Shown: piece by piece, positions 20,802 through 35,254 of the stretch
Numbering within the stretch: the stretch's first letter is position 1
Layout: each line of letters starts with the position of its first letter
Source: a virus
DNA: 46,754 bases
Strand: one strand, 5' to 3'
Virus record (IMG/VR): IMGVR_UViG_3300044957_000296
Coordinates: 1-46,754 of that record
The notes under the pieces: generated by a model
Seen by the model: the letters and a program-made list of their open reading frames with translations, nothing else
Databases searched by the model: none
What the model was told of the DNA's origin: nothing
Position numbers and translations under genes: made by a program

Positions 20802-21986
20802 TTATCGGCCCACTTCTTTGAAGTAGTGCAATTTGGCTTCATCATAACTCATTCCAATCATTTTATTATAAAAATGAATATCGGTCTTCAAATTACCTTC
20901 TGACTTTAATTTCTTATATCTTTCTACGGCTTTAGGCTTCCACCAATCGGTAACCCCCTTTACATCATTGGTGTACAGTTCTTTCATCTTTAACTGTCCA
21001 TCGTCGATTTTATTTTGAAGATACTCTTTAGTGTTGTCATAGAAACAACTGTAATATACGCCTCGTTCATATCCATGTTGATATGCACTTTGTTTAATTC
21101 CACACTTATTAAAAATCATGGATATTACCCTAGATTTAGCGCCAGTTACAGGTCCTGATACTCCTTCTCGTTGAGTCATGGCTTCATCATACTTTTCACT
21201 AAAATTCTCCTTAATCCATTCGTGCCACACTTTATAAAGGTCTTCATCAGGTTTAATTGCAATTTTTCCAGCACTTGATCCACATTTGTGCCACCACTTC
21301 AAGCTGTTGTACATACTGTAGCTACCATACAAACTAGTGGTGGTCATTCCTACTAATGTTTGATTATACAACTTCTTCCACAAATTTCTGACCGCAGATG
21401 TAGTAATCATAGCGGCAACCAATTTACCGCCCAAAAAGTTATATCCAATTGGTTGTGTACTCATAATACAACTACCAATTGCACTATGCGCCAACTTTTT
21501 ATCTTTGATTTTGTTATCGGTAGACCAACCAATATAAGTGTCACGATCATTAATTGAAATAACATCACTGGATACGCTGATTACTCCAATATATCGTGGA
21601 TTGTCCACATTTCCATCTGTAATCAAAAACTTTAAAAATCTGCCGGGGGTTTGATCAAACCTCATAGTATGACCAAATACTCGCAGTGTAGTCCAATCAT
21701 CATTTAACAATTTATTATCTATATGTACAAGTGTAGGATTACACTGTTCAATTTCCTTTATAGTTAAAGATTCATCGTTAAAATCGGTTGGGGTCCAAAT
21801 CTTAGCTTTTACAGTGTTGGCTTTTACCGAATCATCTGAATATGATTGTATTTCTTGCCATTTCTTATAAAATGTCTGTTCCTCGACAGACATGGCTTTG
21901 AGCGTATCTAAGTTTTGAATCAATTTTCGTTTATTGGTTTCAAAATCAAATGCTTCTACTCCGAAAAATTCTTGTAATGCATCCAT
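20802..21986 (-). CDS. DruA/DUF4338 homologue (Druantia anti-phage component family)
   Basis: 394 aa. The signature region of DUF4338 is intact: RYIGVISVSSDVISINDRDTYIGW (131-154), STQPIGYNFLGGKLVA (176-191), then LVGMTTTSLYGSYSMYNSLKWW (211-232) and KCGSSAGK (234-241). DruA of bacterial Druantia defence systems carries this domain; its chemistry is not settled. No druB-E genes are seen nearby, so this is a solitary phage copy, perhaps a counter-defence decoy, an inter-phage weapon or a DNA-processing enzyme. It has its own promoter with the same leaderless spacing as uvsE. Confidence 0.8.
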   Translation of the reverse strand: MDALQEFFGVEAFDFETNKRKLIQNLDTLKAMSVEEQTFYKKWQEIQSYSDDSVKANTVKAKIWTPTDFNDESLTIKEIEQCNPTLVHIDNKLLNDDWTTLRVFGHTMRFDQTPGRFLKFLITDGNVDNPRYIGVISVSSDVISINDRDTYIGWSTDNKIKDKKLAHSAIGSCIMSTQPIGYNFLGGKLVAAMITTSAVRNLWKKLYNQTLVGMTTTSLYGSYSMYNSLKWWHKCGSSAGKIAIKPDEDLYKVWHEWIKENFSEKYDEAMTQREGVSGPVTGAKSRVISMIFNKCGIKQSAYQHGYERGVYYSCFYDNTKEYLQNKIDDGQLKMKELYTNDVKGVTDWWKPKAVERYKKLKSEGNLKTDIHFYNKMIGMSYDEAKLHYFKEVGR

Positions 21987-28714: not shown

Positions 28715-29803
28715 TTATAGCGCACAAGCTCCGCTTTCACAACCGGATTCTTGTACAGTTGGTTGTTTTATTTCTACATTCTTTTCTTCCATAACAGTTT
28801 GTTTATCACCATCATCTGTATTTGCATAATAAAGATTCTTTAATCCATACTTATAAGCCAATAGAATGTCTTTGATTACGTCTTGTACAGGCACTTTATT
28901 CTTATCATATCGTGAAGGAATATAATAGGTATTGGTGCTTATGCTCATATCCGTAAATTTTTGAATGGCCGCAGCTACCTTTAGATAACCTTCATTGCTT
29001 GGCATGTCAAACGCAAAAGTATAATTATCTTTATACTTATCAATATTTGGAATTACCACAGGCAAGATATTGCTCTTACTACCCTTGAAACTAATAGCAC
29101 TACGGGGTGGTTCAATGCCATTGGTACTACTTTGAATCACACTGCTAGATTCAACAGGCATACAAGCAGTAAGTGTACTGTGTCTCATACCATGTTTCTT
29201 AATTTCTTCACGAAGAGTTTCCCAGTCACAATGTAATTTTTCTGTAATAAATTCGTCAATATCTCTCTTGTATGTGTCAATTGGAAGAATTCCCTGACTG
29301 AATTTAGTGCGATCAAACTTCTCACATTTACCAACTTCTTTAGCCATTTGTACACTAGCTTTAATTAAATAATAACTCGTCTTCTCCATCCATTTGGCAA
29401 CAAAGTTCGGAGTTTCTTTATCCCAATACTTTATGCCTTCTTTAGCCAATAGAGCAGCCAAATTACTTACACCGACTCCAAGACTACGACGCTTCTTTGC
29501 AAAGTTTTCAGCTGCTGGAACGAAATATTGTTGGTGATCAATTAGTGAATCTAACATTCTCACAATAATTTCACAAACATTTTCCATTTCCTCATCATCT
29601 TTAATTTCTAACCAATTTAATGCGGCCAAAATACAAACGCCGATTTCTCCCTTGGGATCATTTACATCATAAATTGGAGTTAAAGGATGATTTACCTCAA
29701 GACAATTGTGAACTAATATATTATTGGCATAAAAATTATGATTATCTTTTACGGTTATATCATACACATCTGATTTTTCTTTTATTTTTTTAATTTTTAA
29801 CAT
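28715..29803 (-). CDS. nrdA: NrdA C-terminal part, preceded by C-intein (split-intein half)
   Basis: The first 33 residues are a C-intein: MLKIKKIKEKSDVYDITV, then NHNFYANNILVHN (blocks F and G, ending in His-Asn), followed by Cys as +1 residue. From there the NrdA C-extein runs 329 aa: ICILAALNWLEI-like region, SSSVIQSSTNGIEPPRSAIS, YYIPSRYDKNKVPVQDVI and the redox-active tail CESGAC. After trans-splicing with the upstream ORF it completes class Ia ribonucleotide reductase. Own ATG with an AAGGA site about 10 bp upstream. It resembles the NrdA split inteins described from environmental phage-like sequences. Confidence 0.93.
   Translation of the reverse strand: MLKIKKIKEKSDVYDITVKDNHNFYANNILVHNCLEVNHPLTPIYDVNDPKGEIGVCILAALNWLEIKDDEEMENVCEIIVRMLDSLIDHQQYFVPAAENFAKKRRSLGVGVSNLAALLAKEGIKYWDKETPNFVAKWMEKTSYYLIKASVQMAKEVGKCEKFDRTKFSQGILPIDTYKRDIDEFITEKLHCDWETLREEIKKHGMRHSTLTACMPVESSSVIQSSTNGIEPPRSAISFKGSKSNILPVVIPNIDKYKDNYTFAFDMPSNEGYLKVAAAIQKFTDMSISTNTYYIPSRYDKNKVPVQDVIKDILLAYKYGLKNLYYANTDDGDKQTVMEEKNVEIKQPTVQESGCESGACAL
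29705..29803 (-). other. C-intein (33 aa)
   Basis: Block F (DVYDITVKDNHNFYANN) and block G (ILVHN|C) are complete: penultimate His, terminal Asn and the +1 Cys at 29704-29702 needed for trans-splicing. Confidence 0.92.
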
Positions 29804-29873: not shown

Positions 29874-30191
29874 TTATATAATATCTAAACTGTCAGTTTC
29901 ATTTAAATCTTTGGCTTTTACATATCCTCTATTTTTAGTGAAAATTAAATGATCCTCTGTACATTTAATAGTAAATCCAGTTTCTTCATCTGTAATTTCT
30001 ATTAAGTTTGCATCAACACCGGTAATATTTGAATTTAAAACTTCTTTATAAGAAATTTCTTGATTGTCTATATTTTTTGATAATACATTTATATTTTTAT
30101 TTTGTTTGAATAAATCATCCACTTCTTTAAGAGATAATTTCATGGGAATATTATCAACTACGCAAGAAACTTGTGTATCTGGATGTAAACA
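29874..30191 (-). other. N-intein (105 aa)
   Basis: Starts with the nucleophilic Cys (30191-30189) in CLHPDT and contains the block B TEDH. Length and end point are typical of naturally split inteins (~100 + ~35 aa). Confidence 0.92.
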
Positions 30192-31490
30192 CAAATTGCT
30201 TGTATCTACTTGATCTAGCCAGCTACCGTGTTCATTTGCATGATCTACATGCATGGTATAAATACGACCAGTTTCCAATCTTTCTTTAGCAAGTAGACCC
30301 ATCAGTTCACGAGCAGATACTTTCTTCTTGAATTTAATATTCTTGTCAGCTTCAGCCCTTTCATACTTTTCTTTAAAGTCTGGCAATCCAAAACTGTTCC
30401 ACAATGATGGACATTCATGATAACTAAATAGTGTAACGTCCTTGTTCTGTAAGAATCGTTCAAATATTAATTTGTCTAAACCAATACAATAATCTAATTT
30501 GCGAACACGATTATCATCAGTTCCTTGATTGTTCTTCAATACAAGAATGTCAAGAATATCATAATGAAACCATGCGAAATTAACTGTTGCGCTTCCGCCA
30601 CGAATACCATTCTGGTGACAACTCTTTACGGTAGATTCAAATGCCTTACTAAAAGGAACTGGACCTGTATGAATTACTTCACCATTACGAATAGGAGCAT
30701 TTGTGGCACGTAATCTTGATAGATTCAAACCAATACCATAACGACTTGCAGTAGCAAATCCTACTGCACTATTATTAGCAAAAATGCTCTTAAGGGTGTC
30801 ATCAACAGTAAAGAGAGAACAACTTGCATAACTCTTCATTACAGTTCTGACTCCAGCCATGATTGGCGTTGGAAGATTAATCTTGTGTTTGCTAAAGTAG
30901 TTGTATGCTTTTTTAATATACTCTAGTCTCTTTTCTTTATAACCTTTGAAGAAGGTCATAGCAATCAACATATATGTAAATTGTGGAGTTTCGTAAACAG
31001 TTTTGGTTACACGATTTTGTACCAAATACTTATCACACAATTGTTTGATACCAGCATATGTGAAATTAAAATCACGGTCATGCTTCAGATATTCATCCAA
31101 TTTATCAAATTCTTGTTTACTATACCATTCTAGAATTTGTTGATCATATACGAGTGACTCAACATTCTTTTTTACAATATCATATAACTTGGGTGGATTT
31201 TTACCTCCCCATACATTTTTTCTAAGCTGATAATTTAACAGTCTAGAGGCCACATATTGATAGTTTGGTTTTTCTTCACTAATTAGATTTGCAGCAGACT
31301 CAATAAGTAATTTGTGAATATCAACACTTGCCATTCCGTCAAAAAATGATAAATGTGCATTCATTCCTACTTCTTCAAAACTGACACCTTTTATATCGTC
31401 AGTCGCCCATTGCAACACTTTGTTTATTTTGTCCGCGTTAAACTTTTCAACTATACCATTTCGCTTCTTTATAAAAATTTCTTTATTCAT
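29874..31490 (-). CDS. nrdA: NrdA N-terminal part followed by N-intein (split-intein half)
   Basis: Large subunit of class Ia ribonucleotide reductase. Residues 1-~90 form an ATP-cone (KKRNGIVEKFNADKI), followed by the barrel with SYASCSLF (active-site Cys region), FATASRYGIGLNLSRLRA and GGSATVNFAWFHYDIL. The extein stops at SNL (433), just where other NrdA proteins continue 'SNLC'. The last 105 residues are an N-intein: it begins CLHPDTQV (block A) and has GFTIKCTEDHLIF (block B, T-x-x-H), then a TAA. The joined exteins (433 + 329 aa) equal the normal length of ~760 aa. The 70-bp gap to the second ORF carries no endonuclease gene. Confidence 0.93.
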   Translation of the reverse strand: MNKEIFIKKRNGIVEKFNADKINKVLQWATDDIKGVSFEEVGMNAHLSFFDGMASVDIHKLLIESAANLISEEKPNYQYVASRLLNYQLRKNVWGGKNPPKLYDIVKKNVESLVYDQQILEWYSKQEFDKLDEYLKHDRDFNFTYAGIKQLCDKYLVQNRVTKTVYETPQFTYMLIAMTFFKGYKEKRLEYIKKAYNYFSKHKINLPTPIMAGVRTVMKSYASCSLFTVDDTLKSIFANNSAVGFATASRYGIGLNLSRLRATNAPIRNGEVIHTGPVPFSKAFESTVKSCHQNGIRGGSATVNFAWFHYDILDILVLKNNQGTDDNRVRKLDYCIGLDKLIFERFLQNKDVTLFSYHECPSLWNSFGLPDFKEKYERAEADKNIKFKKKVSARELMGLLAKERLETGRIYTMHVDHANEHGSWLDQVDTSNLCLHPDTQVSCVVDNIPMKLSLKEVDDLFKQNKNINVLSKNIDNQEISYKEVLNSNITGVDANLIEITDEETGFTIKCTEDHLIFTKNRGYVKAKDLNETDSLDII

Positions 31491-33035: not shown

Positions 33036-34109
33036 TTACTCAACAAAACTGTTGAGTTTACCCCACGTCTCACTTAACCAAACTATATAGTTTGGCAAAT
33101 TATTCCACATCTTATCTTCAGTTATTAATTTACTGAATCCCATCTTGTCTATACGGGGAATTGGCTTGTTTATTATTTCTTCAATTCTCAATTGAGTGAA
33201 TGATTGAATTTGAGTATCATGCAGCTGCATCAATTCATAATTTCGTTCCAACAATAATTTGTTGTCTAGCACACGATCATAAATCTTATACTTGTTACGG
33301 TGATTCTCACTATAATTATATATTTGTTGTATACAAGCCTGAGGATCTTCTCCTAGAAAAGGAAACGCTTGTACAACTCTCTTTAAACCTACACCATCTA
33401 ATCCCGGAATATTATCACTTGTATCACCCTCCATAATTCTATAGAAGATAAAATTTTTGCATGTAATACCATATTCATCCACAATTTCTTTGCAACCAAA
33501 AATCTTTTTCTTTACAGGACTCCACACATTAATTCTATCGTTAGCTAACTGTAAAAAGTCTTTGTCGGTAGACATGATAGTGACATTGCTATCTTTGAAT
33601 GTCTGTTTAGCTAGATAGGCAATAGTATCATCGGCTTCAACTTGATCAATGGCCATTACAGTTGTTGGAAGGGTATCCAAATAACTTACCGTTCTAATTA
33701 ATTCCTTTTTAAAATTTTGCGATTCTGTAATACTGTCCGACAATTCATTATATGTTCTGTTTAATCTAATATCAGTTCTACGACCATTTTTGTAATCAAG
33801 ATAAATCTTTCTTCTTTTTTGTGATCCACCTTTTCCGTCAAATACAATAATAACCCGCGTAGGACTTAATAATTTAATTGCATATCCCACACTTTTTAAA
33901 AATCCAGCAATACCGCCAGTATGAAGACCGTCATCATTTAGCGATGGCACTGACATGAAACTACGAATATAGGTGTTTAACTACAACCCGTCAACCAACA
34001 GGACATCGCTGTTAAGCGACTTTTTTAGTCCTGTTGTGACGGAATCTCCTTCTATGTTCTTAAACAGAGAGAATAGTTTCTTTCGTTCGTTTGGTGTGAA
34101 ACCACTCAT
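33036..34109 (-). CDS. 5'-3' exonuclease / flap endonuclease (T4 RNase H-like) with an in-frame amber codon
   Basis: Removes RNA primers and flaps at the lagging strand. Full reading from 34109 (ATG overlapping the recA stop as TAATG) gives 358 codons: MSGFTPNERKKLFSLFKN.., VLLVDGL, TAG (33983-33981), LNTYIRSF, then the intact remainder with VIIVFDGKGGSQKRRK, IDQVEADDTIAYLA, MSTDKDFLQL and GDTSDNIPGLDGVG. The next in-frame ATG (33956) would give a 306-aa product lacking the first metal-binding Asp of VDGL. All other catalytic acidic residues are present, so selection seems to maintain the gene. Either the stop is bypassed or the gene is damaged. Confidence 0.8.
33978..33986 (-). other. Candidate recoding site TTG-TAG-TTA
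   Basis: Amber codon (33983-33981) flanked by two leucine codons that one tRNA-Leu could read. Skipping six nucleotides (TAG TTA) would give VDGL-NTYIRSF, the length expected for this active-site motif. Confidence 0.4.
33988..34042 (-). other. Strong mRNA hairpin just upstream of the amber codon
   Basis: Three stacked helices with small bulges: CCGTCA/TGACGG (6 bp), CAACAGGAC/GTCCTGTTG (9 bp) and TCGCT/AGCGA (5 bp). All are within coding sequence, ending one base before the TTG of the recoding site. Confidence 0.7.
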
Positions 34110-35254
34110 TATTCTTCGTTTCTAGCAGTTTCTTCTTCGGTGTCAACCACAGCGTCATCAACAATCTGGCTGTTCGGATCCTTGTATTTCATAATAACGG
34201 CGTCACAAATCTTCAGATACAACTCTTCTTTTAGAGCTTCATCAGACCGCATGGTTGTCACAAAATCTTTGGATTGAAATTTCCATTCGTTTCCGTCATC
34301 TTTTCTATAGGAATAGTAAGCACCACCTTGTTTGACAATATTATTTTCTTTCAATACTTTGATCCAACTGCTATAGTCGGCAATTCCACTATCAAAGTAA
34401 ATTTCAAAATTAGCTTGTCGTTGTGGTGGACCTATTCGGTTTTTGATAACAACCGCTTTACACTCGTTACCAATAACTTCCTCGGCCTTTTTCAGCTTTC
34501 CAGTATTGTTCAAACGAACACGAACACTACAATGGTAAGCAAGTGCCTTACCGCCACTTACCACATACTTGTCACCAAATGCCATTGCATTTAGATTCTG
34601 ACGAAGTTGATTAGTAAATACAGTAAGAACCTTTTGACGACCAATCATGGTAGTAATCTTACGCATTGCCTTACTGATAATGATACTCTTACCAGTTGCG
34701 AACCCGTCTTTACCGTGGTCGCTTTCTAGTTCTGATTTTGTGGATGCTGCTGCTACAGAGTCAACAATAACTGTTAGAATACGATCTTTGTTGCTCTTAC
34801 GAACAATTGCAATCATCTTTTCCATCTGAGCAAAAATATCTTCAACGGTTTCACATTGAACATATAGTAGCTTAGACAAATCTACACCCAAGCTCTTCCA
34901 GAACTCAGGAGCAGCTGCGTTTTCAGTATCAATTACTACCGCAACACCACCTTTCTTTTGAGTGTTTGCAACAACATGTGCGGATACTAGACTCTTACCA
35001 GTACCTTCCAATCCATTGAATTCAACCATCTTACCAACGGGCAAACCTCCGTGAGGACGATTGCTAATTGCGAGGTCTAGGATAGACGACCCAGTACCAA
35101 TCCAATCACTAATTTCTGCTGGATTTTCCTGTTCATCCAAGAAATAAGCGATCTTTCCACCATCTTTATTTGCTTTGTTAAGCTCGTTTGCCAACAATTC
35201 AATTAATTCATCTCGTTGAGCAGATTCTTTTGTAACACTAGATTTTTTTGCCAT
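34109..35254 (-). CDS. uvsX: RecA/UvsX recombinase
   Basis: 381 aa. Walker A GLEGTGKS (81-88) follows DWIGTGSSILDLAISN; then VVIDTENAAAPEFWKSLGVD, Walker B ILTVIVDSVAAAS, and KVLTVFTNQLRQNLNAMAFGDKYVVSGGKALAYHCSVRVRL (loop L2 region), as in RecA/UvsX proteins. Catalyses strand exchange for recombination-dependent replication and repair with the adjacent single-strand binding protein. The acidic C-terminus (VVDTEEETARNEE) is typical of RecA-like proteins. The stop overlaps the exonuclease ATG, coupling the two. Confidence 0.93.
   Translation of the reverse strand: MAKKSSVTKESAQRDELIELLANELNKANKDGGKIAYFLDEQENPAEISDWIGTGSSILDLAISNRPHGGLPVGKMVEFNGLEGTGKSLVSAHVVANTQKKGGVAVVIDTENAAAPEFWKSLGVDLSKLLYVQCETVEDIFAQMEKMIAIVRKSNKDRILTVIVDSVAAASTKSELESDHGKDGFATGKSIIISKAMRKITTMIGRQKVLTVFTNQLRQNLNAMAFGDKYVVSGGKALAYHCSVRVRLNNTGKLKKAEEVIGNECKAVVIKNRIGPPQRQANFEIYFDSGIADYSSWIKVLKENNIVKQGGAYYSYRKDDGNEWKFQSKDFVTTMRSDEALKEELYLKICDAVIMKYKDPNSQIVDDAVVDTEEETARNEE

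Follow-up and report, generated by a model that had tools for sequence, protein, structure and literature searches.

A probable programmed stop-hop within a mobile homing endonuclease cassette in a phage exonuclease gene

The bypassing in gene 60 of T4, described in a 2010 review of this phage as apparently unique to that gene (PMC3014915), takes place next to the homing endonuclease gene mobA (PMC3014915, PMC5009743), and in the model put forward for it the completed 5' stem-loop pulls the mRNA after the release of the tRNA (PMC5009743). A 2016 review of recoding covers two further systems: synthetic stop-hops in E. coli, with a stop set between matched codons, and the byp elements of Magnusiomyces capitatus mitochondria, which are short non-coding inserts in essential genes with imperfect matches between take-off and landing sites; no natural in-frame stop-hop was known according to the same source (PMC5009743). 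Here we describe a phage exonuclease gene that very probably contains, judging from comparison of its sequence with those of its relatives, a programmed short translational bypass (stop-hop) carried within a mobile endonuclease cassette. The literature we searched, mostly outside subscription journals, holds no prior report of this site.

The window, i.e. the whole stretch of DNA analysed, is an IMG/VR virus record of 46,754 bases, and by its gene content the phage would be classed as T4-like, with Pfam matches around the site to UvsX/RecA, a gp32-like protein, a DnaB-type helicase and ribonucleotide reductase. The exonuclease gene lies on the minus strand and is open from the ATG at 34109 to the TAA at 33036, broken only once, by a TAG at 33983-33981 in the context GGG-TTG-TAG-TTA-AAC; its ATG overlaps the stop codon of the RecA/UvsX-like gene (TAATG). 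The features of the locus are as follows:

34109..35254, minus strand: upstream RecA/UvsX-like gene (ORF and Pfam match); a homing endonuclease gene intervenes in some relatives
33984..34109, minus strand: exonuclease codons 1-42 including the take-off codon, ending in LLVDGL with the first metal-binding Asp; conserved in 128/128 gapped loci
33988..34042, minus strand: hairpin of 21 bp, whose 3' arm is made of the LLVDG codons and abuts the take-off codon (folding, synonymous-codon null, covariation)
33984..33986, minus strand: take-off codon TTG (Leu), placed relative to homologues
33981..33983, minus strand: stop codon TAG, in relatives TAA or TGA (sequence and relatives)
33978..33983, minus strand: 6-nt non-coding gap TAGTTA, 5 or 7 nt in other lineages (comparison of homologues)
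33978-33980, minus strand: proposed landing codon TTA, the last codon of the gap
33036..33977, minus strand: distal exonuclease frame, which starts again at AAC (Asn) and contains the other catalytic acids (Pfam PF02739; acids invariant in gapped alleles)

Nearby in the window the large subunit of ribonucleotide reductase is split over two genes on the minus strand, of which one (29874-31490) ends in the N-part of an intein splicing domain and the other (28715-29803) begins with the C-part, so that the divided subunit looks like a natural split intein. An ORF at 20802-21986 (minus strand) matches DruA of the Druantia anti-phage system (Pfam E = 9e-21), here within a phage contig.

The initial annotation of this DNA had pointed to the in-frame amber codon, to a strong hairpin directly before it, and to the loss of a catalytic Asp from the only later start, and all three are borne out: the stop by the reading of the ORF (34109-33036) and by relatives with the same anatomy, the hairpin by folding and by comparison with synonymous codons, and the later start by the ATG at 33956, which opens an ORF of 306 aa that lacks the VDG aspartate. 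Skipping of 6 nt yields VDGL-NTYIRSF, exactly the spacing of intact homologues, whereas plain read-through adds two residues.

In the predicted fold of the window, CCGUCA followed by CAACAGGAC pairs with GUCCUGUUG-(GU)-UGACGG, and an inner helix of 6 bp brings the total to 21 bp; its last paired base is 33988, in the middle of the Gly codon, which leaves 1 nt before TTG. The stability of this hairpin (-28.8 kcal/mol) corresponds to z = -4.9 against dinucleotide shuffles and to z = -7.3 against 300 sequences that encode this peptide with synonymous codons, none of which (0/300) is equally stable. A hairpin directly next to the take-off codon is present in each of the 26 distinct gapped sequences, with z between -3.1 and -8.3 against synonymous recoding and with 6-9 of the last 9 bases before that codon paired, and in every gapped allele the 3' arm spans the VDG codons, with compensatory changes. 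The hairpin covaries, which answers a question raised in the initial annotation: in 12 equal-length sequences its outer helix is 98.4% paired, 5 pairs are altered on both sides, and the covariation score reaches 0.276, compared with 0.151 for shuffled sequences (0/500 as high) and at most 0.113 with the partners slid. In deeper lineages the pair at the Asp wobble position switches between G-C and A-T, and the one at the Val wobble position takes four forms.

Among 132 distinct intact sequences, a strong stem abutting the position of the take-off codon was found only in L397, L398, L401 and L445, which may be alleles that lost the gap. The idea that a strong hairpin is unique to gapped alleles was rejected, as intact alleles of the window's clade possess another one, with its 3' end further upstream. 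This hairpin (L009, L036, L042, L281 and other intact alleles of the clade) covaries, covers exonuclease codons 19-38, comprises at least 16 bp in many cases, and ends about 9 nt before the Leu codon equivalent to the take-off codon. Given its presence in intact alleles, hairpins at this site may have another role or more than one.

Scans of IMG/VR with the exonuclease proteins, the linked endonuclease and DNA patterns yielded 192 unique alleles, 40 gapped (128 loci) and 152 intact; since the first gapped alleles guided the pattern scans, these counts give no natural frequency of the hop. Gapped exonucleases extend down to 41% identity with that of the window and share a common anatomy, namely the hairpin, VDG, the take-off codon, a stop, 2-4 bases, and Asn-Thr. 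The stop follows V-D-G-(L) in every gapped allele; its presence is constant while its identity varies, TAG, TAA and TGA all being used after the take-off codon. The gap measures 5 nt in 19 alleles, 6 nt in 14 and 7 nt in 7, with no other length, and comparison of the 40 gapped with the 152 intact unique alleles places the resume point at the same Asn codon for all three classes. Besides TTG-TAG-TTA of the window, the sites include TTG-TAGTG or CTG-TAGTG, CTC-TAGCGTC, CTC-TAACGTC, CTT-TAG-CTC, CTC-TAA-CTT, CTT-TAG-CTG, CTT-TGA-GTA, CTG-TGA-CTC, CTT-TAA-CTG, CTG-TGA-CTG, CTT-TGA-CGA, CTA-TAGAAAA and ACG-TAGCT. Most 6-nt sites are thus of the form CTN-stop-CTN, and the middle base is common to take-off and landing codons in 11 of the 13 distinct pairs; identity of the two codons is complete in a single lineage (L373), and CTA/AAA and CTT/CGA hardly match. 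A DNA search of named phages and plasmids revealed no hop element. The phage homologue nearest by identity (LR756508) has an uninterrupted VDGLN, and in Mel-JY01 and Flavobacterium immuto the site is annotated within a single ORF.

The initial annotation had proposed a hop from TTG to TTA that skips 6 nt, and had mentioned as alternatives a damaged assembly and an insertion of six bases that inactivates the gene. Intact homologues indeed lack exactly these bases and many relatives keep the stop together with the hairpin, so that the proposed hop, which would produce a joined protein, is supported and even strengthened by the relatives in which gaps of 5 or 7 nt end at the same codons. An assembly error and a lone mutation are both rejected: this combination of stop and hairpin turns up again in contigs from many metagenomes whose assemblies were independent of one another. 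The present comparison adds that the gap is part of a mobile homing endonuclease cassette, that three stop codons are used, and that the match between take-off and landing codons may be partial.

Hairpin-stimulated read-through of the stop, with two residues (X-Leu) inserted ahead of Asn, is a very unlikely explanation. The frame is indeed kept in the 6-nt class, and the stop is often followed by C, a weak context for termination; yet read-through is unable to join the homologous 5- and 7-nt gaps, all three stop codons are in use, and not one intact allele has extra residues at the site. Since gaps of 5, 6 and 7 nt resume at one fixed point, read-through is excluded as the common mechanism. 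Termination followed by re-initiation, leaving a 42-aa peptide with the VDG aspartate and a separate distal protein that either cooperate or are inactive, would fit the 5-nt class, where the stop overlaps a GTG of the distal frame (TAGTG), but we judge it very unlikely: the codon before Asn is not a start in most lineages (TTA, GTC, CTC, CTT, GTA, AAA, GCT, CGA), several lineages have no ATG, GTG or TTG for at least 9 codons downstream, and an essential motif would be divided over two chains.

Near-identical phages occur both with and without the gap. The exonuclease tree mixes gapped with intact alleles and requires at least 20 changes between the two states, and certain pairs of gapped and intact alleles share identical distal proteins. 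The gapped allele L029, which has the endonuclease, and the intact allele L021 are 100% identical over 1,372 nt of uvsX, to its very end; L029 then has the endonuclease gene, identity over the initial 126 nt of the exonuclease drops to 33-71% (21-nt windows), and from the Asn codon onward the two are 99-100% identical. Since identity resumes at the Asn codon, the gap marks, in this clearest of the pairs, the right border of the replaced block. The endonuclease gene lies immediately upstream of the exonuclease in 14 of 38 gapped and in 0 of 152 intact unique alleles (a count that ignores shared ancestry), in association with all three gap lengths and with the divergent lineages L244, L273, L219/L076, L334, L360 and L372; none is found beside the window's own exonuclease. 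In the scan with the endonuclease, all its relatives of at least 46% identity are located on contigs with gapped exonucleases.

The product of the inserted gene is about 300 aa long and combines a NUMOD3 motif with a Vsr-like nuclease domain. Its structural model is of moderate quality (mean pLDDT 67) and only the match of its C-terminal domain was used, the best one being to the catalytic domain of I-Bth0305I (Foldseek E = 9e-4, TM-score 0.72 by target length); a sequence search of the PDB returned nothing but ankyrin-like noise. The cassette would comprise this free-standing homing endonuclease gene, a recoded start of the exonuclease, and the stop, with the hop at its right border. It would enter intact alleles where the active-site motif is encoded, and the changed sequence would protect the carrier from being cut. 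The endonuclease presumably cuts intact alleles, and the sharp borders of the replacement are consistent with cleavage of these and sparing of the gapped ones.

In L305, the interval of about 600 nt between uvsX and the exonuclease contains out-of-frame fragments that resemble the N-terminus of the endonuclease, together with other coding-like sequence, and appears to be a decaying or replaced endonuclease gene. As only fragments persist in L305 and the window gene has no neighbour of this kind, the hop can outlive the selfish gene. In the gapped alleles L016, L017, L040 and L051, which have no endonuclease, about 90 nt between uvsX and the exonuclease, at the endonuclease position, contain a strong inverted repeat, TTTTCCACACAGTC...GACTGTGTGGAAAA. 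The intact allele L015 (2993-3934) has an N-terminus typical of the 5-nt class, without the gap and without a strong hairpin, and is likely a revertant in which the hairpin subsequently decayed.

Gapped alleles might also be dead exonuclease genes, i.e. products of an inactivating insertion that the endonuclease sustains and spreads by homing drive. The interleaving of the two kinds of alleles and the recent movement of the cassette agree with such a scenario, but we consider it highly improbable, as every cassette lineage has kept VDG along with the hairpin, and gapped clades without an adjacent endonuclease retain all catalytic acids at 66-74% identity. In two such clades every member found is gapped: L326 and L332 are 74% identical to each other and 51% to the nearest intact allele, and L328 and L330 are 66% identical, with the nearest intact allele at 46%. 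No back-up copy, i.e. no second PF02739 gene, was found in five gapped contigs of 131-304 kb (whose completeness is not established), and the downstream acids expected of the enzyme family are invariant in seven gapped exonucleases. The codons just past the gap show 51 synonymous and 10 non-synonymous changes (pN/pS 0.05; pooled, overlapping pairs), even though a usual start codon is absent there from most alleles. As the cassettes land on intact backgrounds, this purifying selection is partly inherited from the intact recipients, and pN/pS alone is not decisive. The gapped-only clades are the stronger sign of retained function.

Excision of 5-7 nt from the mRNA and ligation beside the hairpin is barely credible: RNA ligase and kinase are often encoded by T4-like phages, but this process needs no stop, yet there is one in every gapped allele, and no known RNA family matches the region. 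An alternative genetic code or a suppressor tRNA is ruled out by the three stops, the two out-of-frame gap sizes and the absence of tRNA genes in the window (0 by ARAGORN), and frameshifting by the opposite shifts that the 5- and 7-nt classes need at one place, with no slippery site seen by eye.

We infer instead the bypass itself, with the hairpin as its driver. The ribosome would translate 42 codons of the exonuclease and stall with peptidyl-tRNA-Leu on TTG and the stop in the A site; the hairpin would refold immediately behind the P site, the peptidyl-tRNA would release, the mRNA would slide by 6 nt, or by 5 or 7 nt in the relatives, before the tRNA re-pairs at the codon preceding AAC, giving a full-length enzyme with the VDGLNTYIR motif whole. 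We lean, by a small degree, towards the broader view that homing-linked stop-hops are a natural and widespread class, in which refolding of the hairpin behind the ribosome causes a fixed move of 5-7 nt over any stop, the landing being set mostly by distance and loosely by codon match. One homologous gene thus offers dozens of natural variants of a single hop, which differ in stops, gap lengths, codons and hairpins and have intact sister alleles as controls, which opens the contributions of the 5' hairpin, codon matching and the stop to direct testing. Coupling between a homing endonuclease and a ribosomal hop, which our results suggest is not peculiar to T4, may be a more general route by which selfish genes enter conserved active-site codons.

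Compared with the synthetic stop-hops, the sites described here share the codon-stop-codon layout (CTG-TGA-CTG, CTT-TAG-CTC, TTG-TAG-TTA), in which 9 nt would be decoded as one amino acid, but they are natural and conserved, have a strong 5' hairpin, and in some cases span 5 or 7 nt. The byp inserts seem free of mRNA context, whereas here, in a phage/bacterial system, the hairpin and the stop are constant. The endonuclease shares its predicted C-terminal fold with I-Bth0305I, but its gene stands alone between uvsX and the exonuclease gene and is linked to the hop. With T4 gene 60 the sites have in common the 5' stem-loop, the stop directly after the take-off codon and, in part of the alleles, an adjacent homing endonuclease, and the layout of the hairpin fits the model of the gene 60 stem-loop. 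A stimulatory nascent peptide is a further feature of the gene 60 type; the N-terminal 42 aa are conserved in gapped alleles, which enzyme function alone would also lead one to expect. The sites differ from gene 60 in that a gap of 5-7 nt, as opposed to 50 nt, leaves no room for an internal stem-loop, the hairpin lies wholly 5' of the take-off codon, and codon matching is partial, the take-off codon being mostly Leu and often unlike the landing codon; three stops, another host gene, another endonuclease family and many lineages are involved. By analogy, their mode of action would resemble that of gene 60, of which they represent a separate, shorter version.
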